Shown here: positions 7,120 through 19,518 of the stretch, one piece after another
Numbering within the stretch: the stretch's first letter is position 1
Layout of the letters: each line of letters opens with the position of its first letter
Virus record (IMG/VR): IMGVR_UViG_3300021139_000094
Coordinates: 1-29,009 of that record
Strand: one strand, 5' to 3'
Length of the DNA: 29,009 nt
Origin: a virus
The notes under the pieces: generated by a model
What the model saw: the letters and a program-made list of their open reading frames with translations, nothing else
Databases searched by the model: none
What the model was told of the DNA's origin: nothing
Position numbers and translations under genes: made by a program

Positions 7120-9903
7120 ATGACTTTCGTAGTTGCAGATAGAGTCCAAGAAAATGGAACTGTAAGTGTTGGTACTGGCTCAGTAACTCTGAGCGGTGCG
7201 GTAAACGGCTATCAGTCTTTTGCCTCTGGTATTGGTAACAACAATACTACGTACTACACCATTTATGATCCTGCTTCCTATGCTTGGGAAGTGGGTCTTG
7301 GCACCGTTACAACTGGACCAAATACATTAGCCCGTACAACCGTATATGCAAATAGTGCGGGTACTGCACCATCTAAGATTAGCTTTAGCACTTCAAATAC
7401 CCTAACTGTATTTGTTACTTACCCAGCTGAAACTGCAATCTACACGGGCTCATCTGCATCACTTAATTCGGTAACAACTACTAAGTCAATTAGCAGCTCA
7501 ACAAATATGGCTCCGTTTAATTACGGAACATTGAGCTATTCAGACACAGGCATATTTGCTTCTTACCAAACTAGCGTAAATAGCTACGCTCAGATGATTT
7601 TGCAGAACTCTTTAAACGGAACTGCAGCTTCTGCTGATTATATTGTTAGCTCAGATGGTGGCACAGCAACCACCAACTATGGTGACTTTGGTATTAACAG
7701 CTCCGCATATACAGGTACTGGCCCATTAAATGCTGCCAGCATGGTGTATTTGTATTCACAAAGCACTGACTTAACGATTGGTACAAATAGCTCTAACGCT
7801 ATTCACTTTACGATTAACAACCAAGCAACAGATGCTATGACTATTAATACGTCTGGCTCTATTGCAATTAACGGTCAGACTGGTTCGTTAGGTCAAGTTC
7901 TTATTTCCCAAGGCTCTAGCAATCCTCCATCATGGGGTAATGCTGGTGGTAACTTAGTTGTAACTGACTTTACTGCAACTGCTGGGCAAACTACATTTAG
8001 CGTAACTTATGTAGTTGGTACTGTATCTGTATATCGCAACGGTATTAAACTTGGGTTGGCAGACTTTACCGCAACTAACGGTACTTCTGTTGTGCTATCT
8101 ACTGGTGCTGTAGCTGGTGATTTGATTGAGATTCAGTCTTTCTCAACCCTAACTTTATATAGTGCAATTACATCTCAAGACTTTAGTGGTACAGGCTCAC
8201 AAACTGTATTTACACTTAATACCAACCCAGCTAACTCAGCATCGCTTTTAGTTGCTATTAACGGTGTTGTACAAGACCCAGCGAACTACACAATATCTGG
8301 CAATACACTAACCTTTACAACTGCTCCAGCAACTGGTACAAATAACATCTCAACCCGTACATTGGGCGTTCCAGCTACCACTGCAGTATCATCATTCTCA
8401 GCTGGTACAACAGGCTTCTCACCAACTTCAGCAGCTTCTGGTGCAGTAACTCTTAGCGGTATTTTGAACGTAGCTAATGGCGGTACAGGCTTAACCACAT
8501 TAGGCTCTGGGTACATCCCTTACGGTAACGGTACATCGGCATTTAACAGCCTGTCTACATTTAACTTTGACGGCTCAACATTATTCTCACCAAATGCTTC
8601 CCTATCTGGTAATTTAACTTTCAGTGGTACTGGGTCAAAAATCCTTGGTGACTTTACCAATACTACTTTAGCTAATCGTACAGTTATCCAAACATCAACC
8701 ACTAACGGTGCTACTGGTGTTTATGTAGTTCCTAATGGCACAAGTACCGCAGCTTCTATTCAAGCATTAAACGCTGCTACCCCTACTAATGCATCTAAGA
8801 TTTTAATTGCAACTAACGGATCAACAGACGTTCAGTTGGTATCAGGTATTAATGGATCAGGCACTTACTTACCACTGACATTTTGGAATGGTGGTGCTGA
8901 ACAAATGCGTCTTACTACTGGTGGTTTATTGGGTATTGGCACTGCTAGCCCATCTGCAACTTTAACTGTTGGTGGTACAGGTATTGCTAATGCTACTTGG
9001 ACTTCTTCTACTCGTCCTGGATCTCCTGTGGCTGGACAACAAGGCTACAACACAACAATTTCAGATTTAGAGTTTTGGAATGGTTCTGCATGGACTCGTG
9101 TACTTAACTTAAATACACCATCTACTTATGCAGTCACTTATTTAGTTGTTGCTGCTGGTGGCTCTGGTGGAACTAACGGAACAGGTTCTGGTACTCCAGG
9201 TGGTGGCGGAGCTGGTGGATATTATTCTGGTACAGCCACAGTATCTTCGGGTACAACATATACTGCATCTATTGGTGCTGGTGGTGCTCAAGTTACTACA
9301 CAAAATGGGAATGGGTTTCAAGGTAGTAATTCATCTTTAATTGGCGGTGCTATTTCTTACACAGCTATTGGTGGTGGATATGGAGCTGGTGCTGGTGGCA
9401 ACGCTGGTGGTAATGGTGGATCAGGTGGTGGCGGCAATAATGGTACAGGTGGTTCAGGTACAACAGGTCAAGGAAATGCTGGAGGTGCTGCATCTGGTTC
9501 GGGTGGTGGTGGAGCTGGTTCTGCTGGGCAATCAGGATCTCCTTCAGGTAATGGTGGTTCTGGATTGCAGTGGGTAGATAATATTTATTACGCTGGCGGT
9601 GGTGGAGGTGGTGGTCCAACTAGTTCCAATTCAAATGGTGGTATTGGTGGCGGTGGAGCTGGTGGTTGGACAGGCAGTTCACAAGGTACAAGCACTCCTG
9701 GTAATGCTGGAGCACCAAACACAGGTGGTGGCGGTGGAGCTGGTGCTTATCTTCCTTCTGGGCCTGGTGGTTCTGGTATTGTTGCTATCGCTTATATTTC
9801 TGATGCTCCTCGTGGACAAGGCGGTCAAGTAAGTTCGTACACCACTGGTGGGGTTACATACCAAATTCATTACTTTACATCTAGCGGTACTTATATAGGT
9901 TAA
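7120..9903 (+). CDS. Large tail fibre with polyglycine-rich tip
   Basis: A 927-residue fibre with AAGGAG upstream. Order: an N-terminal attachment module (about 1-110, with YYTIYDPASYAWEVGLGTV); two beta modules at nt 7957-8370 (DFTATAGQTTFSVTY and FSGTGSQTVFTLNTNP types); a stalk with the shared GGTGL module; an S74-fibre-like QMRLTTGGLLGIGTASPS; then from about nt 9140 a very Gly-rich domain with runs up to seven Gly, ending in a beta-rich VTYQIHYFTSSGTYIG. Gly-rich tips of this kind in other phages (for example the S16 gp38 adhesin) pack as polyglycine helices and carry variable receptor-binding loops. Receptor binding is therefore likely; the receptor is unknown. Confidence 0.8.
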   Translation: MTFVVADRVQENGTVSVGTGSVTLSGAVNGYQSFASGIGNNNTTYYTIYDPASYAWEVGLGTVTTGPNTLARTTVYANSAGTAPSKISFSTSNTLTVFVTYPAETAIYTGSSASLNSVTTTKSISSSTNMAPFNYGTLSYSDTGIFASYQTSVNSYAQMILQNSLNGTAASADYIVSSDGGTATTNYGDFGINSSAYTGTGPLNAASMVYLYSQSTDLTIGTNSSNAIHFTINNQATDAMTINTSGSIAINGQTGSLGQVLISQGSSNPPSWGNAGGNLVVTDFTATAGQTTFSVTYVVGTVSVYRNGIKLGLADFTATNGTSVVLSTGAVAGDLIEIQSFSTLTLYSAITSQDFSGTGSQTVFTLNTNPANSASLLVAINGVVQDPANYTISGNTLTFTTAPATGTNNISTRTLGVPATTAVSSFSAGTTGFSPTSAASGAVTLSGILNVANGGTGLTTLGSGYIPYGNGTSAFNSLSTFNFDGSTLFSPNASLSGNLTFSGTGSKILGDFTNTTLANRTVIQTSTTNGATGVYVVPNGTSTAASIQALNAATPTNASKILIATNGSTDVQLVSGINGSGTYLPLTFWNGGAEQMRLTTGGLLGIGTASPSATLTVGGTGIANATWTSSTRPGSPVAGQQGYNTTISDLEFWNGSAWTRVLNLNTPSTYAVTYLVVAAGGSGGTNGTGSGTPGGGGAGGYYSGTATVSSGTTYTASIGAGGAQVTTQNGNGFQGSNSSLIGGAISYTAIGGGYGAGAGGNAGGNGGSGGGGNNGTGGSGTTGQGNAGGAASGSGGGGAGSAGQSGSPSGNGGSGLQWVDNIYYAGGGGGGGPTSSNSNGGIGGGGAGGWTGSSQGTSTPGNAGAPNTGGGGGAGAYLPSGPGGSGIVAIAYISDAPRGQGGQVSSYTTGGVTYQIHYFTSSGTYIG
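8395..8544 (+). repeat. Fibre stalk module, copy 1
   Basis: Encodes [20 protein letters not shown] through GGTGLTTLGSGYIPYGNGT to SAF. It is homologous at protein level to 10414-10629, 11497-11631 and 23492-23623. It is the most diverged of the GYIP-containing copies at the DNA level. Confidence 0.7.
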
Positions 9904-13159: not shown

Positions 13160-14062
13160 ATGTTTGGGTACGCATCGTTTGCACAATCTCCATTTGCAGC
13201 ACTAGGCGGAAATGCTTTTGTATTTTTCCCTACGGAGAATGTAAACTTTGCGGACTCAGCAACAATAGCAGCTCAGTTTGCAACATCAATTACTGAAGAC
13301 GCTATATGGGCGGATTCAAACACCAATACCTTTGCACTTTTAGAGTCAATTACTGAAAACCTTATTTTTACTGACTCTGCTACGATTGCAGCCGCTTTTG
13401 CAACATCTATTACTGAACCATTTAGCTTTGACGACCAGCGGTTTATTAGTGCCCAGTTTGCTACATCAGCTACTGAAAACTTTAGTTTGGCTGATTCCGA
13501 GTCAATTCGTGCTGATTTTTCTACACCTAAAACTGAAAACTTTAACTTTGCTGATACCCCATCTTCTCGCCATGATTTTGTTCAGTCCATTACTGAGCCG
13601 TTTATTTTTGGCGATATTATCAGCGAACAAAACATTTTCCAGTTCACTATTAGCGAAGGCGAAAGATATGCAGACTCTAGCACCCAACGGTCTACTTTCT
13701 TAGAGTCTCTTACTGAAAACTTTACTTTTGCTGATTCCAGCACCCAGCAATCGGTTTATTACGAAAATATTAACGAGGATTACCAACTGGCGGATTCAAG
13801 TGTCCAACGCTCTGCTTTCTTAGAATCCATTTCTGAAAACTTTAAACTGGCTGATACCCCTACAATTACGGCTCAGTTTGCGGTAAGTATTAAAGAAAAC
13901 GTTAATTTCCTAGCTGTAAACACCTATACTGGCTGGTTTAAAATTGATGACACCGACATCATAAACTGGAATAATATCAATAATATGGGTGGGGGCAACT
14001 GGACAACAGTTATAGACACAGAAGACCCAGGTTGGGCACCAATAAATGATTTTCAAGGATAA
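13160..14062 (+). CDS. Virion protein of eleven 20-residue repeats
   Basis: A 300-residue protein. Residues 1-24 (MFGYASFAQSPFAALGG) form a short anchor. Residues 25-244 are eleven consecutive units of exactly 20 residues with pattern T/S-E-N-F-x-F-A-D-S at the start and an F near position 16, then S-I. Residues 245-300 are W/N/D-rich (TGWFKIDDTDIINWNNINN). The exact period with conserved aromatic, Asp and Glu positions suggests a regular solenoid or fibre shaft. There are no Cys and no enzyme motif. It lies between fibre genes. I recall similar environmental phage proteins with no known function. Confidence 0.7.
   Translation: MFGYASFAQSPFAALGGNAFVFFPTENVNFADSATIAAQFATSITEDAIWADSNTNTFALLESITENLIFTDSATIAAAFATSITEPFSFDDQRFISAQFATSATENFSLADSESIRADFSTPKTENFNFADTPSSRHDFVQSITEPFIFGDIISEQNIFQFTISEGERYADSSTQRSTFLESLTENFTFADSSTQQSVYYENINEDYQLADSSVQRSAFLESISENFKLADTPTITAQFAVSIKENVNFLAVNTYTGWFKIDDTDIINWNNINNMGGGNWTTVIDTEDPGWAPINDFQG
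13232..13891 (+). repeat. Eleven tandem 60-bp coding repeats
   Basis: Eleven in-frame units of 60 bases encode residues 25-244 of the surrounding gene. The units are diverged in DNA but keep their length without a single indel. A partial twelfth unit (KENVNF) follows. Selection on protein structure is the likely cause. Confidence 0.85.
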
Positions 14063-14065
14063 ATT

Positions 14066-14884
14066 ATGGCATCTTCATACACAACTAGTTTAAAGATACA
14101 ACAGATAGGTAACGGCGAACAGTCTGGTGTATGGGGTACAACTACCAATACTAACTGGAACTTAATTGAACAGGCAGTAGCTGGGGTAGTCACAATTACA
14201 ATGGCAAATGCCAATTACACCCTATCAAACCTAAACGGAGTGCTAGACGAAGCCCGTAATATGGTAATAGTAGTTGGCGGTACTAACTCTGGCGTGTATC
14301 AAGTCGTTGCCCCCCTAGTTAACAAGTACTACGTTGTATCAAACCAAACTTCTGGCGGATATGCAATCCAAATAGGTGGTGCAACGGGTTCTATCGTATC
14401 TATACCAAACGGTGTTACAGCTCAGGTTTATTGTGACGGCACAAACTTCTTCTCAGCTTTAACTGGTACTGCTGGTAGTTTTAACGTCAACGGAACTTTG
14501 ACTGCTTCTGGTGTTGCTGACACGGGCTCTTTATCTGCTCAGTCTTTAGCAGTATCTGGTAACTCCACATTTACTGGTACTACAACACATACAGGAACTG
14601 CGACCTTTAACGGTACTGCAAACCACAATAGCACAACGACTGTACCTACTGTAGCTACAAACGACAACTCAACTAATGCTGCTTCTACAGCCCTTGTAAC
14701 TAATAAGATTGCTGCTATTACCAGCATACCAAACGCTAATGCTATTACCAACTCTGGTGGTTGGAGCGTCACTCCATCAGGAACAAAACTTTACTTCAAC
14801 TATAACGGTACTAACGTGGGGTCTTTAGATTCAGGTGGTAACTTCACTTGTACCGGCAACGTAACCGCATACGGAAGCCCATAA
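14066..14884 (+). CDS. Tail fibre-like protein lacking an S74 chaperone
   Basis: A 272-residue protein. The N-terminal module (SSYTTSLKIQQIGNGEQSGV, then WGTTTNTNWNLIEQAVAG) is a common fibre attachment module. The middle is a Ser/Thr/Gly shaft. Near the end are VPTVATNDNSTNAASTALV and SGGNFTCTGNVTAYGSP. In related fibres, as I recall, a GNVTAY-type segment leads into an S74 intramolecular chaperone (DERLK-type start), but here a TAA follows at once and overlaps the radical SAM start. It may be a naturally short fibre or one whose chaperone was lost or replaced. Confidence 0.7.
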   Translation: MASSYTTSLKIQQIGNGEQSGVWGTTTNTNWNLIEQAVAGVVTITMANANYTLSNLNGVLDEARNMVIVVGGTNSGVYQVVAPLVNKYYVVSNQTSGGYAIQIGGATGSIVSIPNGVTAQVYCDGTNFFSALTGTAGSFNVNGTLTASGVADTGSLSAQSLAVSGNSTFTGTTTHTGTATFNGTANHNSTTTVPTVATNDNSTNAASTALVTNKIAAITSIPNANAITNSGGWSVTPSGTKLYFNYNGTNVGSLDSGGNFTCTGNVTAYGSP

Positions 14885-16314
14885 TGCTATTTGAAATACA
14901 CGCAGAAAAGAATGCGCTAGATAAAAAAGTATTTCTCTACGACAACCAAACAAACATCCTTAAAGACTTGGATGGGAACGTCTTTAAATTTTTAGACCAG
15001 CAAGAAAGCCTAGACTACCCACCGGCTACTGTGTTTAGCAAAGACGAGCCTTTAAAAAAGTCCAAACATATCCAGCTGCTTAAAATCCAGCTGGGGCTTG
15101 GGTGCAACTACACCTGTGACTACTGCTCCCAAAAGTTTGTTGAGCGTGCTGAGTCTACGACCCATAAAGATGTAGAAACGTTTCTACAAAAGCTAGATAC
15201 CCTAGAGTTCTCTGAAAAAGTTGGGTTGAAGGTGGAGTTTTGGGGTGGCGAGCCTTTGGTTTACTGGAAAACCCTTAAGCCTTTGGCAGAAGCACTGCGG
15301 GAAAGATTCCCATATGCTAAGTTTTCTATGATTACTAACGGTTCTATTTTGACTGAGGAAGTCATTGACTGGCTTATGATGATGGACTTTGCAGTGTCTA
15401 TTAGCCATGATGGTCCCGGTCAGTCTGTGCGTGGTCCAGACCCATTTGATGACCCAGAAAAGAAAGAACTAATATTAGGGTTTTACCGGATGATGAGCCG
15501 CCTAAAAAAAGGCATCAGCTTTAACTCCATGCTGTCCAAAAATAACCAAAGCCGTAAAGCAATCCATGAATGGTTTATGAACTTAACTGGTAACCCTGAG
15601 ATTGTGCTGGGCGAAGGCACACTGGTTGATGCTTATGATGAAGATGGCATTACTAACTCACTTCTAACCCACCAAGACCACTTTAACTTTAGACGCACTA
15701 CATTTAAAGAAATCTTAGCAAACCACGGCTATATTGGGTTCCAAGCAATTATTGACAAGATTGACAACTTTACCCGTGCTGTCCTATCCCAAACCCCAGC
15801 TAAATATCTAGGGCAAAAATGTGGCATGGATGATGAGCATGTGCTGGCTGTTGACCTACATGGAAATGTGATTACTTGCCAAAACGTATCTGCTGCAGAA
15901 ACAGGTAAAAACGGACAACCCCATTTATCAGGAAACCTAGATGATTACGATAACGTATCCATCACCACATCTACTCACTGGAGTAAACGCTCTGAGTGCC
16001 CATCCTGTCCAGTATTGCATCTCTGTAAAGGAGCCTGCATGTTTCTCGATAACAAGTTCTGGGAAGTCTCCTGCGCCAACGCATACTCTGACAATGTCAC
16101 TTTGTTTGCCCTATCCATCCACAACATGACGGGTTATATCCCTTATATGATTAAAGGTGAGGGTTTACCATTAGAACGGCAAGATATATTTGGTACTATT
16201 TACCAACACGAAGAGAGGCCAGCTAAACGCGTTATACCTATTAAAGTAGTTAGCGACGTAGTTGGTAAAATTGATAACGTTGAAGTTTATGGAAAGGCTA
16301 GGGTAGAAGCATGA
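14884..16314 (+). CDS. Radical SAM/SPASM enzyme, peptide-maturase type
   Basis: A 476-residue enzyme. I chose the ATG at 14884 (TAATG overlap); an extension to 14848 lies inside the fibre gene. Cys74, Cys78 and Cys81 form the CxxxCxxC cluster site with Tyr80, and GGEP at 121-124 is the SAM-contacting motif. The C-terminal SPASM domain is complete: Cys313-x13-Gly327-x4-Cys332, then Cys372-x2-Cys375-x5-Cys381-x3-Cys385 and Cys397, enough for two auxiliary iron-sulfur clusters. This is the layout of sulfatase maturases and RiPP cross-linking enzymes, which act on Cys, Ser or nearby side chains of peptides. I see no separate leader-recognition (PqqD-like) domain. The stop overlaps the Cys-rich gene as ATGA, making its product the most likely substrate (inference). 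Confidence 0.9.
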   Translation: MLFEIHAEKNALDKKVFLYDNQTNILKDLDGNVFKFLDQQESLDYPPATVFSKDEPLKKSKHIQLLKIQLGLGCNYTCDYCSQKFVERAESTTHKDVETFLQKLDTLEFSEKVGLKVEFWGGEPLVYWKTLKPLAEALRERFPYAKFSMITNGSILTEEVIDWLMMMDFAVSISHDGPGQSVRGPDPFDDPEKKELILGFYRMMSRLKKGISFNSMLSKNNQSRKAIHEWFMNLTGNPEIVLGEGTLVDAYDEDGITNSLLTHQDHFNFRRTTFKEILANHGYIGFQAIIDKIDNFTRAVLSQTPAKYLGQKCGMDDEHVLAVDLHGNVITCQNVSAAETGKNGQPHLSGNLDDYDNVSITTSTHWSKRSECPSCPVLHLCKGACMFLDNKFWEVSCANAYSDNVTLFALSIHNMTGYIPYMIKGEGLPLERQDIFGTIYQHEERPAKRVIPIKVVSDVVGKIDNVEVYGKARVEA

Positions 16315-17192
16315 CACTACCATCTTCAGGTCCGATAGCAGTAAGCAATATTAATACCGAGATAGGACAATCTCCTACCTTTACGGATAACCTGTCATTT
16401 TTAAATGGCTTGCTTTTATCACCAGCTAGTTCGCCTAATATGAGTGCGTTCTACAGCAAAGCGTATTTCCAAAACACTACGCAAGGTAACTGCTCAAACG
16501 GCAACTGTACCAACAACTGTAACTGTGGAAACATTCAGTGTAATAACTGTTTTATCTCTGGCTACACCAACTGCGTAAACTGCCAAAGCCAAGCGTACTT
16601 ACAAAATAACTGTAACTGTGGCCCTGCTGGGTATAACTGTGTAACATCACAAACTGCATCTTATAACTGCAACTGCGCATGCAACTGTTCCAAAATTATT
16701 TGTGCCAAGCTTTATGAACAAGGCAATATGGACCCAAATGTATGGGCAGCTGACCAGAAGTATGGCAAATGGTTACGTCAAAATGATAGACGTGTATACC
16801 GAGGCTATATACGTTGGGCTCGTACTGTAACTGCTTGGATGGATGGCAAAGGTCCAGATTGTTTCCTATGGATAAGAAAGGAAGATCGTGCACAAGCTCA
16901 AAAAGAAGCAATTAACAAAATGGCGCTACGGATTGGTATTCCATGGTCTGAACATATGGCTTTCCTCATGGGAGCCCGTCCTCATGACAACTTGCGCGGT
17001 CGCGTACTTATGACTATTGGTGTACCTATTAGCCGTTTGATTGACCATATCCCACATCGTCGTGGACACCGCATTTTGACTTTATGGACTATGTGGGCTT
17101 TGTTCTGGATGAGCCATTGGACCGCATCTGCTATCGTTGCTATTAATAAAAAATTTAGTTTTGAAGGAGTGAAAAAATGGATGAACATATAA
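16311..17192 (+). CDS. Asn-Cys repeat virion-type protein with TM
   Basis: A 293-residue protein. Residues 1-52 (LPSSGPIAVSNINTEIGQ and MSAFYSKAYF) resemble an N-terminal module of marine phage tail proteins. Residues 61-131 hold 16 Cys, 13 of them directly preceded by Asn. After it comes CSKIICAKLYEQG and a W/R-rich domain (AADQKYGKWLRQNDRRVYRG, WMDGKGPDCFLWIRK, IPWSEHMAFLMG) that I recall from other phage virion proteins. About residues 254-279 form a membrane helix (LTLWTMWALFWMSHWTASAI). One more Cys is at 184. Start and end overlap neighbours. A surface or membrane-contacting protein, and a likely substrate for the adjacent modifying enzymes, is inferred; disulfides or metal binding are alternatives. 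Confidence 0.7.
   Translation: MTLPSSGPIAVSNINTEIGQSPTFTDNLSFLNGLLLSPASSPNMSAFYSKAYFQNTTQGNCSNGNCTNNCNCGNIQCNNCFISGYTNCVNCQSQAYLQNNCNCGPAGYNCVTSQTASYNCNCACNCSKIICAKLYEQGNMDPNVWAADQKYGKWLRQNDRRVYRGYIRWARTVTAWMDGKGPDCFLWIRKEDRAQAQKEAINKMALRIGIPWSEHMAFLMGARPHDNLRGRVLMTIGVPISRLIDHIPHRRGHRILTLWTMWALFWMSHWTASAIVAINKKFSFEGVKKWMNI
16491..16703 (+). repeat. Asn-Cys repeat region
   Basis: Codes for residues 61-131 of the gene at 16311. Cys at 61, 66, 70, 72, 77, 80, 88, 91, 101, 103, 110, 120, 122, 124, 126 and 131. All but those at 77, 124 and 131 follow Asn. Gaps are irregular (2 to 10), so it is a dipeptide bias and not a fixed-period tandem repeat. Confidence 0.9.
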
Positions 17193-17587
17193 TCCAACAA
17201 ATCCCCCCAGTAGAGGAAATTATCCCCGACGCACTAAAGGAAAAGGTTTCTCCTTATAAAAATATTAAGCCCGAAGAAGTGGCTGCGTATAGAGATTTTG
17301 TCGTCCATTACTTTGATAACCAGATGAACCGTGACATTTTGATGTTGCCAGAAACTGACAAAGTGCGGATGTTCCAGATGCTGCAAGACTATGCTGATGT
17401 GCTAGAGAAGATTTTTCACCCCGGCATTCCTATCCTTGAGCATATTTTAGGTAAACGCTGGGCAGCGGCAAATGCAAACCCACACGCAGGTATTAACTAC
17501 GACTACGACTGCGAGATTATTCGTCAATATGATGCTTGGAAAGCAGTACAAGAAACAGCTAAAGTAGATGACGAACCTCAAAGTTAA
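17177..17587 (+). CDS. Unknown acidic protein in the modification block
   Basis: A 136-residue protein with GAAGGAG 7 bases upstream, overlapping the previous gene by 16 bases and the next by 20. It is mostly helical: PEEVAAYRDFVVHYFDNQM, ETDKVRMFQMLQDYADVLEK, HPGIPILEHILGKRWAAANA and YDCEIIRQYDAWKAVQETA. It contains no Cys cluster, cofactor motif, signal peptide or membrane segment that I can see. I do not recognise the family. Its fixed place between the Cys-rich protein and three oxygenases suggests an accessory or substrate-presenting partner, or a fibre chaperone. Confidence 0.55.
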   Translation: MDEHIIQQIPPVEEIIPDALKEKVSPYKNIKPEEVAAYRDFVVHYFDNQMNRDILMLPETDKVRMFQMLQDYADVLEKIFHPGIPILEHILGKRWAAANANPHAGINYDYDCEIIRQYDAWKAVQETAKVDDEPQS

Positions 17588-18227
17588 CCCTATATGGGGT
17601 AGCCCTGCTTGGGAAATGTTTCTCCCATTTAATGAAGGCTTTAATGAGGACTTGCTAAAAGAGCTGCATTCTATTGGCTCGGACATTGCTTTTGGTTTAG
17701 ATGACAGACCACAAGATAGCCTTTGGGATTACGACACTCCTTGCTTAAGCCTACTAAAAAAGACAATCGTAGCCCATGTAACTGCGGTGTTGCGTTCTGC
17801 TATTCCAGAAGCTAAAGAGCTTAATATGTCGGTGGAGTCTCATATGTGCTGGCCTAACGTACGGGAACCGGGAGAAACTTTAGAAGTTCATGCGCATACT
17901 GACTCTACTATTGCTTGTACTTACTTTGTTAAAACCCCTGAGAATTGCGGTGACTTAGTATTGTTTGAAAGCCGCGATGCAATTAACTGGGAAAAAGGAT
18001 GCCTTAACCCAGATGCCAGTATGAAGGAAAGACGCATTAAACCAACGGCAAACAAGCTAGTATTTTTTCCATCTTACATTTTGCATACAGTAGAAGAAAA
18101 TAAGTCTGATGATTTGAGGGTAACTATTACTTGCGACCTAAAGAAAGTTATTGATAAAACTGCGCCTAACGCCATCGTGCTTAAAAGTTGGGCAGACAAA
18201 ATGGTGAAGCTATGTTCAGAAAACTAA
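17568..18227 (+). CDS. Fe(II)/2-oxoglutarate oxygenase 1
   Basis: A 219-residue double-stranded beta-helix protein. The iron ligands are visible as His110-x-Asp112 (EVHAHTDSTIACTYFVKTP) and His173 (KLVFFPSYILHTVEEN); Arg184 is placed to bind 2-oxoglutarate. The HxH start, the YFVKTPENCGDL strand and the FFPSYxxHxV strand match putative 2OG-Fe(II) oxygenases of the PF13759 type. Such enzymes hydroxylate proteins or small molecules using O2. The substrate is unknown. It is translated by overlap with the unknown gene before it and with the next oxygenase (16 bases), so they were probably kept as a unit. Confidence 0.8.
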   Translation: MTNLKVNPIWGSPAWEMFLPFNEGFNEDLLKELHSIGSDIAFGLDDRPQDSLWDYDTPCLSLLKKTIVAHVTAVLRSAIPEAKELNMSVESHMCWPNVREPGETLEVHAHTDSTIACTYFVKTPENCGDLVLFESRDAINWEKGCLNPDASMKERRIKPTANKLVFFPSYILHTVEENKSDDLRVTITCDLKKVIDKTAPNAIVLKSWADKMVKLCSEN

Positions 18228-18727
18228 AGCATTTTTTTCACAATTTAGAATACACGCAAGGTCAAGAGAAGATTAACTACAGTGACCTGATTAGATATTA
18301 TGAAACCAATCTTACTCAAGGCGGGGTTTTGAACATATTACCGCTGCGCTACCGCCCAGATTTTCAGTTATCCCTTATGCAAATAGAAGGTGCGGTTCCT
18401 CCGCATACTGACAGTGAAGTTAAGACGTCAATTAACTTTTATATAGACCCAGGTGTTTATATGACTACGTTTTACAGCCCACGACCCGGAGCAAAAACTA
18501 CGCAGGTTGCAGGTCAAACCAACGGTTATGTCTATGAAATGCCAGACCTTTTAAATCGTGGTACGTTTATTGCTAACGCTGGTGATGGCTGGGTTCTTAA
18601 TGTTTCAGCAGTACATGGGGTTCAGCCAGTATCAAAAGTTACTAGACGGACTGCGCTTTGTCTAGCCACAGATAAACATGATTTTGATGCTGTAATTGAA
18701 ATGCTAACTGAGACAGGAAACGTCTAA
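18212..18727 (+). CDS. Fe(II)/2-oxoglutarate oxygenase 2 (small)
   Basis: A 171-residue protein. The ATG at 18212 is chosen; an earlier TTG at 18188 would add eight residues inside the neighbour. His65-x-Asp67 (GAVPPHTDSEVKTSINFYID) and His135 (DGWVLNVSAVHGVQPV) are the likely iron ligands, with Arg145 or Arg146 the 2-oxoglutarate partner. The strands around them fit the beta-helix core; the protein is near the minimum size for the family and has an N-terminal helical segment. I cannot name a subfamily. It ends in TAATG with the third oxygenase. Confidence 0.7.
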   Translation: MFRKLKHFFHNLEYTQGQEKINYSDLIRYYETNLTQGGVLNILPLRYRPDFQLSLMQIEGAVPPHTDSEVKTSINFYIDPGVYMTTFYSPRPGAKTTQVAGQTNGYVYEMPDLLNRGTFIANAGDGWVLNVSAVHGVQPVSKVTRRTALCLATDKHDFDAVIEMLTETGNV

Positions 18728-19518
18728 TGTTTTACGAAGAACTCGATTGCTTAAAGATTGACCATGGTCGTCTTTTGTTTAATTTGCATAACCACGTATT
18801 TCCTTTGGGCAAACAGATCATTCAAGGAGAAGAATATGAAACACCGGCTTATCATGGCTTTGGCGGCTGGTCTATTACTTCCCGTACTGGTCATTGGAGA
18901 GATGGTTGGGATTTTTTCCAGAACGATGAAGGCAAAGCAATGGAAGTTTATTTTCCTAAAAATGACAATAACTTCAAAGCCCTCAAGTTTTTTGACATTG
19001 CTCACTCGATGGAACACAAGAATCCGACAGAGGCATGTGTTGGAGAGTTTGCGTATATCGTTAACCAAATGGAAGATTTAGGGTTATACCCCCGCCGTGT
19101 GCGTGTAACTTGCTTAAAAGCTGGTGCTAAGTCTTTGGTTCATAAAGATGCGGACGATGGAGAGTATATGGCACGTATCCATATCCCCTTGATTACAAAC
19201 AAAAAATGTGTTTTCATATGTGATGGCGTTAACCTCCATATGGAAGTTGGTAAGGTATATGCAGTATGGGTTAATACTTGGCATCAGATTCGTAATGACT
19301 CTAATGAAGACCGCTACCACCTTATATGCGATTTTTACGATACCAAAAAGATTACCAAGACCTTTAAGTACGAAGGTGATATTACCCAGCTAGAAGACCA
19401 TGCAAAATGGATGCGCCAAAAGATTGATGAAGCGGTAATAGAACCAGAATTGCTAGCTAAGTTTGAAGAAGTACGGCAGTCTTTTATTACAAAACCCAAA
19501 CATGAAAAAAATATTTAA
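18727..19518 (+). CDS. Aspartyl/asparaginyl beta-hydroxylase-like protein
   Basis: A 263-residue protein. The core His139-x-Asp141 (SLVHKDADDGEYMARIHIPL), then GKVYAVWVNTWHQIRND with His186, and Arg196 in DRYHLICDFYD match the aspartyl/asparaginyl beta-hydroxylase family (PF05118 type) including its RIHIPL strand. In animals that family hydroxylates Asn or Asp within Cys-rich EGF-like domains; whether this one uses a protein is unknown. It starts in a TAATG overlap, and a holin candidate begins within its last codons. Placed after the Asn-Cys protein and two other oxygenases, it fits a modification cassette. Confidence 0.8.
   Translation: MFYEELDCLKIDHGRLLFNLHNHVFPLGKQIIQGEEYETPAYHGFGGWSITSRTGHWRDGWDFFQNDEGKAMEVYFPKNDNNFKALKFFDIAHSMEHKNPTEACVGEFAYIVNQMEDLGLYPRRVRVTCLKAGAKSLVHKDADDGEYMARIHIPLITNKKCVFICDGVNLHMEVGKVYAVWVNTWHQIRNDSNEDRYHLICDFYDTKKITKTFKYEGDITQLEDHAKWMRQKIDEAVIEPELLAKFEEVRQSFITKPKHEKNI

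Follow-up and report, generated by a model that had tools for sequence, protein, structure and literature searches.

What is the function of a dense run of Asn-Cys dipeptides in a protein encoded by a virus? This question is raised by the window analyzed here, the whole 29,009-base stretch of a virus record, in which tail and virion structural genes are present by PHROG. An ORF at 16311-17192 (293 aa) contains an Asn-Cys (NC) stretch, and the 71 residues encoded by 16491-16703 include 16 Cys and 12 internal NC dipeptides. The first array Cys (codon 16491-16493) is preceded by an Asn codon at 16488-16490, so that 13 of the 16 Cys follow Asn; the other contexts are QC, AC, and IC. An earlier note on this DNA had described a bias toward the Asn-Cys dipeptide with irregular spacing and no tandem repeat. 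The bias was confirmed when the 71 residues were shuffled 200,000 times, with a mean of 3.83 NC, a maximum of 11, and no shuffle reaching 12, and the irregular spacing and lack of a tandem repeat were both borne out. Over the full ORF, Asn precedes 13 of 17 Cys; the baseline in the remaining ORFs of the viral loci bearing NC and radical SAM genes was 53 of 1320 Cys (4.0%). Across 74 distinct NC regions, 884 of 1202 Cys followed Asn and the other 318 followed A (121), Q (75), I (61), D (47), V (10), T (2), or F (2); this set was restricted to ORFs with at least 7 NC, which inflates the NC percentages. All four synonymous codon pairs were used for NC across the relatives (AACTGT 310, AATTGT 253, AACTGC 231, and AATTGC 90), indicating that the dipeptide is kept at the protein level and not as a DNA repeat.

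A query of IMG/VR with the NC protein yielded 49 loci. Among these homologues the NC array varied in length and number and NC was retained. In an alignment of 45 sequences (A2), we used the 14 columns that were at least 40% Cys and had Asn as the commonest preceding residue. The mean modal frequency was 0.953 at position -1, compared to 0.711 at -3, 0.709 at -2, 0.730 at +1, 0.736 at +2, and 0.790 at +3, a favorable outcome for the proposal that Asn before Cys would be conserved more than other positions. Asp replaced Asn at two columns (4 of 42 and 7 of 38 sequences), and in 21 cells of the alignment Asn preceded an aligned column without a Cys.

The coordinates of the NC gene and its neighbors are collected in the table.

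Features of the Asn-Cys locus, in window positions
Feature	Position	Strand	Evidence
Radical SAM/SPASM maturase, likely start ATG 14881	14848..16314	+	PF04055 2.2e-11; phrog_1802 4.5e-61; PapB, QhpD, and CcpM models ~1e-20, far under cutoffs
Radical SAM CxxxCxxC motif (C75, C79, C82)	15103..15126	+	Invariant in 37 of 37
SPASM auxiliary-cluster cysteines C314, C333, C373, C376, C382, C386, C398	15820..16074	+	Invariant in 37 of 37
NC-array protein, putative substrate, 293 aa: N-terminus that we take to be of phage structural type, NC array, C-terminal helical domain	16311..17192	+	49 related viral loci
N-terminal region (MTLPSSGPIAVSNINTEIG...FYSKAYFQN)	16311..16487	+	Conserved start and FYG/FYSK motif in alignment A2
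Asn-Cys array, Asn60 to Cys126, proposed modified region	16488..16688	+	Composition, A2 alignment; pLDDT <50 across most of 58-127
C-terminal domain after invariant SKI(I/V)C junction; predicted all-helical; missing from short forms	16689..17189	+	Alignment, structure model
136-aa ORF, function unknown, travels with C-terminal domain	17177..17587	+	Co-occurrence
2OG-Fe(II) oxygenase (PF13759/TIGR02466)	17568..18227	+	Profile match; in 38 of 51 sources
Weak 2OG-Fe(II) oxygenase-like ORF	18188..18727	+	PF03171 0.0083, below cutoff
Aspartyl/asparaginyl beta-hydroxylase-like ORF (AspH-like, PF05118)	18727..19518	+	1.6e-11; travels with C-terminal domain

The NC gene starts within the last 4 bases of the gene immediately upstream, in the order radical SAM and then NC, and this upstream gene encodes a radical SAM/SPASM enzyme. 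Its membership in this class was met by a PF04055 match over cutoff and by the invariance of all ten Fe-S Cys in 37 relatives, and TIGR04085 was over cutoff in all six of the enzyme relatives scanned. The NCBIfam matches comprised many radical SAM peptide maturases, of which the best by E value were QhpD (2.1e-20), geopeptide, PapB, and CcpM, none near its own cutoff. Among the matches listed, the curated-family cutoffs for seven enzymes of the group were not reached, with the exception of that of the generic SPASM domain. An AlphaFold2 model of the enzyme had a mean pLDDT of 81.7, with the segment around the cluster motif (73-88) below 50. The closest solved fold to this model was CteB (5why; Z 19.7, rmsd 4.4, 343 aligned), followed by ChlB (Z 17.6), anSMEcpe (16.9), and TigE (15.6). 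No helical RRE-type leader-binding domain was evident at the N-terminus of the model, which contained strands only, as judged by secondary structure alone and without RRE models.

We observed linkage of enzyme and array in whichever direction the search was made. A radical SAM relative was present in 48 of the 49 loci found by the NC protein, and in the exception (L042) the contig begins inside the NC gene. A search starting from the enzyme kept 80 of 128 relatives, 79 of them new (L053-L131). Of these 79 viral loci, 76 hold a nearby ORF with at least 8 NC, and in the other three (L074, L109, and L129) the contig edge lies 259, 0, and 1 bases from the enzyme. For a search starting from the array, a degenerate DNA scan of IMG/VR for NCNCxCNC gave at least 119 stretches, among which 47 had a credible array ORF, defined as the longest ORF over the site with at least 80 aa, a rule blind to the enzyme. 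Among the matches listed, the enzyme was in the locus of 38 of the 47 credible ORFs, including all 18 that had 3 kb or more on both sides and all 29 that had 2.5 kb or more downstream; the nine without it all had less than 2.5 kb of downstream DNA and so count as undecided, not as positive, and L147 and L201 may be unrelated. Among the matches listed, 72 stretches failed the credibility rule, of which 11 had the enzyme, ten with an NCNCxCNC ORF dropped by the rule and one (L149) without, a result that blurs the pattern. By construction, the 27 distal proteins described below contain NCNCxCNC, which inflates their NC percentages and leaves the enzyme-first locus counts unaffected. The RiPP criterion of a dedicated substrate beside its maturase was thus met by the enzyme-first search (76 of 79) and, among the matches listed, by the array-first search (29 of 29).

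The pairing extends to bacteria and to isolated phages. Bacterial searches at E <= 1e-60 found the enzyme in 3 of 398, 1 of 369, and 1 of 398 genomes, three distinct genomes in total, and in all three an NC-tail ORF adjoins it (L132, L261, and L262, one of them Polynucleobacter). Close relatives among annotated phages were the isolated Achromobacter phages JWF and 2-1 (43.5% identity), which also have an NC-tail protein and in which the cluster is placed between the tail-tip hub gene and the lysis genes. Variations in gene content were seen at some loci. In L254 (2578-3496), three consecutive short ORFs, each with its own NC tail, lie upstream of a single enzyme. At L148:2386-2784, L186:214-600, and L247:9360-10013, Cys-rich ORFs with CQxCQ-type arrays and then an NCNCDCNC tail adjoin more distant radical SAM relatives (~1e-38 to 1e-41), and these ORFs are a possible Gln-Cys variant of the system. 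In loci not of the window type, helper ORFs recur beside the enzyme, between it and the NC gene, in L134, L137, L145, L151, L159, L173, L178, L191, L208, L215, L218, L239, L242, L250, L251, and L254; most have a common C-terminal motif, GD..K.K.GF..YSG-like, and L134 has instead an ORF that by eye resembles the 240-aa ORF of JWF. No copy is evident in the window. In the Polynucleobacter locus, a large asparagine-synthase-like ORF and next a cupin-like ORF (both by eye) lie downstream of the enzyme (L132:8501-10331).

The arrays were found on otherwise different proteins, several of them of tail fiber type. In a PHROG scan of ten NC proteins from elsewhere, six matched tail fiber families (L134, L145, L179, L208, L242, and JWF) and four had no match, and the NC proteins of L179 and L242 contain collagen repeats. 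The NC protein of the window itself had no match in Pfam, NCBIfam, or PHROGs, and a Foldseek search of its model against the PDB, with the C-terminal helical domain included, gave nothing at E <= 0.001; its description as virion type in the earlier note fits, the relatives of the system being tail fiber-like. N-terminal clustering of 56 NC proteins gave 9 clusters by single linkage, a procedure that lumps 34 of the proteins together and leaves as singletons L147, L170, and L201, which have no enzyme in view. In 27 distinct proteins not of the window type, the chain continues for 0 to 8 residues beyond the last NC, and in 11 of them it stops there, and short forms of the window-type protein in other phages likewise terminate at the array. 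In L088 and L203 a Peptidase_S74 domain immediately follows the array, and in JWF the array NCNCDCNCNCSC continues into a Hom_end Hint domain (3e-12). In known systems, modules of both the S74 and the Hint type cleave themselves, and such cleavage would make the array terminal again. Taken together, these results indicate that a dedicated phage maturase very probably uses NC arrays as its portable substrate.

Other proteins in and around this set were recorded as well. The window also encodes a virion-type protein of 927 aa whose C-terminal part is rich in Gly and which has a phrog_2295 match (7120-9903) and a protein with degenerate repeats of ~30 residues (TENFTFADSSTQ-like; 13160-14062). 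Synechococcus phage SynMITS9220M01 (L052:4669-6516) encodes a relative of the window C-terminal domain (32% identity, 4e-17) in which the domain comes after a Gly-rich segment, an extended run of Pro, and eight Arg; the IIC junction is retained and there is no NC array.

We take the array to be a dedicated enzyme substrate on two grounds: the linkage is two-way, and the array passes from one protein to another with the enzyme remaining in place. The model that we prefer, and consider probable without being secure, is that a phage radical SAM/SPASM maturase uses the Asn-Cys array as its substrate and forms crosslinks from Cys sulfur to Asn carbon at a tail fiber-type tip. The enzyme would modify successive Asn-Cys pairs before or during virion assembly, most likely by joining the Cys sulfur oxidatively to an Asn carbon, probably that of the preceding Asn, each coupling costing 2 Da. 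Attack at the alpha-carbon would give a six-membered thiomorpholinone and attack at the beta-carbon a seven-membered ring. The array would finish at or near the mature C-terminus of the tail fiber-type protein; crosslinking there could make the tip stiff and redox-proof, so as to lock the fiber end or form the receptor contact. Bonds of this kind are favored because thioether-forming enzymes are among the closest matches to the maturase by fold or sequence, and the substitution of Asp for Asn fits a carbon-centered chemistry beside a carbonyl. The 318 Cys without a preceding Asn suggest that some Cys may stay free or that the enzyme may tolerate other residues. Related bonds have been described: enteropeptins contain a six-membered thiomorpholine made from Cys and N-methylornithine, and Asn16 of ruminococcin C1 is a sactionine acceptor (PMC12395415); PapB joins Cys to the beta-carbon of Asp, and zero-spacer Cys/Asp peptides partly react, with a loss of 2 Da (PMC9413430). 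The action of the enzyme on the array, the thioether chemistry, the type of ring, and the role at the tip are all inferred, in the absence of mass, NMR, or structure data, and the carbon attacked, the number of reacting Cys, and the choice of intra- or interchain bonds are likewise matters of inference. The fiber-tip location is itself deduced from sequence, for an NC protein that has no PHROG match of its own. The fullest form of the model, which we put forward tentatively and would not call probable, is that tailed phages of many lineages have in common a so far undescribed system of virion modification, a radical SAM-made ladder of fused thioether rings, built on Asn-Cys runs at the mature tail fiber C-terminus; this ladder would provide a covalently locked, reduction-proof tip or a new receptor-binding surface and act as a portable tag on different fibers, collagen-like ones included, exposed by S74 or Hint self-cleavage.

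Other readings have to be weighed against these crosslinks. The enzyme could act on the array through a different chemistry, namely, conversion of Cys to formylglycine as in anSME, epimerization of Asn or Cys, or addition of a group, which we consider unlikely but deserving of attention. The fold similarity of the predicted model leaves the reaction unfixed, since anSME folds (Z 16.7-16.9, with the best at Z 16.9) and the epimerase EpeE (Z 10.9) match it too; the JWF homologue bears the database name anaerobic sulfatase-maturating enzyme, and some Cys can follow Ala or Asp instead of Asn. However, CteB ranks first by fold, and oxidation of Cys alone would leave the retained Asn unexplained. 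Formylglycine formation in particular is weakened because Asp277 of anSMEcpe (the residue after Cys276), which we take to be its catalytic base, aligns in a profile alignment with Gln334, which is invariant in 37 relatives. Sulfatases are modified at a CxPxR-type motif, and the NC arrays contain no such motif.

A reading in which the enzyme has a different target altogether, and the array is a tail that binds metal or Fe-S clusters or is rich in disulfides, Asn being favored for turns or for the second shell, accords with the 351 occurrences of CxC in the 74 NC regions, a spacing found in metallothioneins, and with the predicted disorder of the array in isolation. We regard it as improbable, because enzyme and array co-occur in both search directions, because the number of Cys in full-length window-type relatives ranges from 16 to 25 and is both odd and even, and because Asn is conserved far above its neighbors, which ligand geometry alone would not require. 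The preference of the earlier note for a reaction of Asn and Cys side chains over disulfides or metal is accordingly supported by the conservation of Asn, the adjacent SPASM maturase, and the two-way co-occurrence; the chemistry was not demonstrated and no modified residue has been observed. Still harder to sustain is the proposal that Asn is retained for hydroxylation by the downstream AspH-like and 2OG oxygenases and that the radical SAM enzyme is incidental. These ORFs do lie downstream of the array in the window, and sub-threshold 2OG-FeII_Oxy_5 matches occur beside the enzyme in L134, L191, L215, and L254. However, when distinct NC proteins with 3.5 kb or more to their right were compared, the AspH and 136-aa ORFs accompanied 28 of 28 with the C-terminal domain and 0 of 7 without it, and those seven retain both array and enzyme, so AspH follows the domain rather than the array. 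Phage JWF lacks AspH.

Crosslinking by radical SAM enzymes is known for small peptides of bacteria and for a few enzymes. Here, in phages that differ widely in composition, this class of enzyme appears linked to the region of the virion that would contact the host. We found no description of Asn-Cys arrays or of radical SAM modification of a phage fiber in the PMC papers searched, subscription papers and preprints being outside the scope of the search, and the system would be categorically new if fused Asn-Cys rings were confirmed. If our preferred crosslinking model is true, fibers carry a chemistry that is invisible to structure predictors and that bears on adsorption, fiber stability, and engineering, and the Asn-Cys tag would offer a short portable substrate for the production of crosslinked peptides.

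Compared to known systems, the closest parallels are the ranthipeptide and SCIFF maturases PapB and CteB, which likewise combine a radical SAM core with SPASM and have a Cys-rich substrate encoded adjacent. The PapB model matches the enzyme over 66-388, but its NF047865 cutoff was not met (71.9 versus 340 bits), nor was that of the SCIFF maturase TIGR03974 (44 versus 425 bits), even though CteB is the best fold match. The ranthipeptide and SCIFF substrates are short peptides with CX3D or with six Cys in 45 residues, whereas the substrate proposed here is a large fiber-type virion protein with NC arrays. In enteropeptin-type sactipeptides the acceptor is N-methylornithine and the product is a secreted peptide antibiotic, and no homologous precursor was seen here. 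Anaerobic sulfatase-maturating enzymes share the SPASM architecture, but TIGR03942 was not met (54 versus 349 bits) and Gln stands at the Asp277 position. QhpD, the quinohemoprotein amine dehydrogenase maturase, has the best NCBIfam E value without meeting the TIGR03906 cutoff (72.9 versus 453 bits). It crosslinks Cys within a functional protein and not a peptide antibiotic; its substrate is an enzyme subunit, whereas here it would be a virus fiber. We class the system as radical SAM peptide maturation, in a form inferred to act on a tail fiber-type virion protein.
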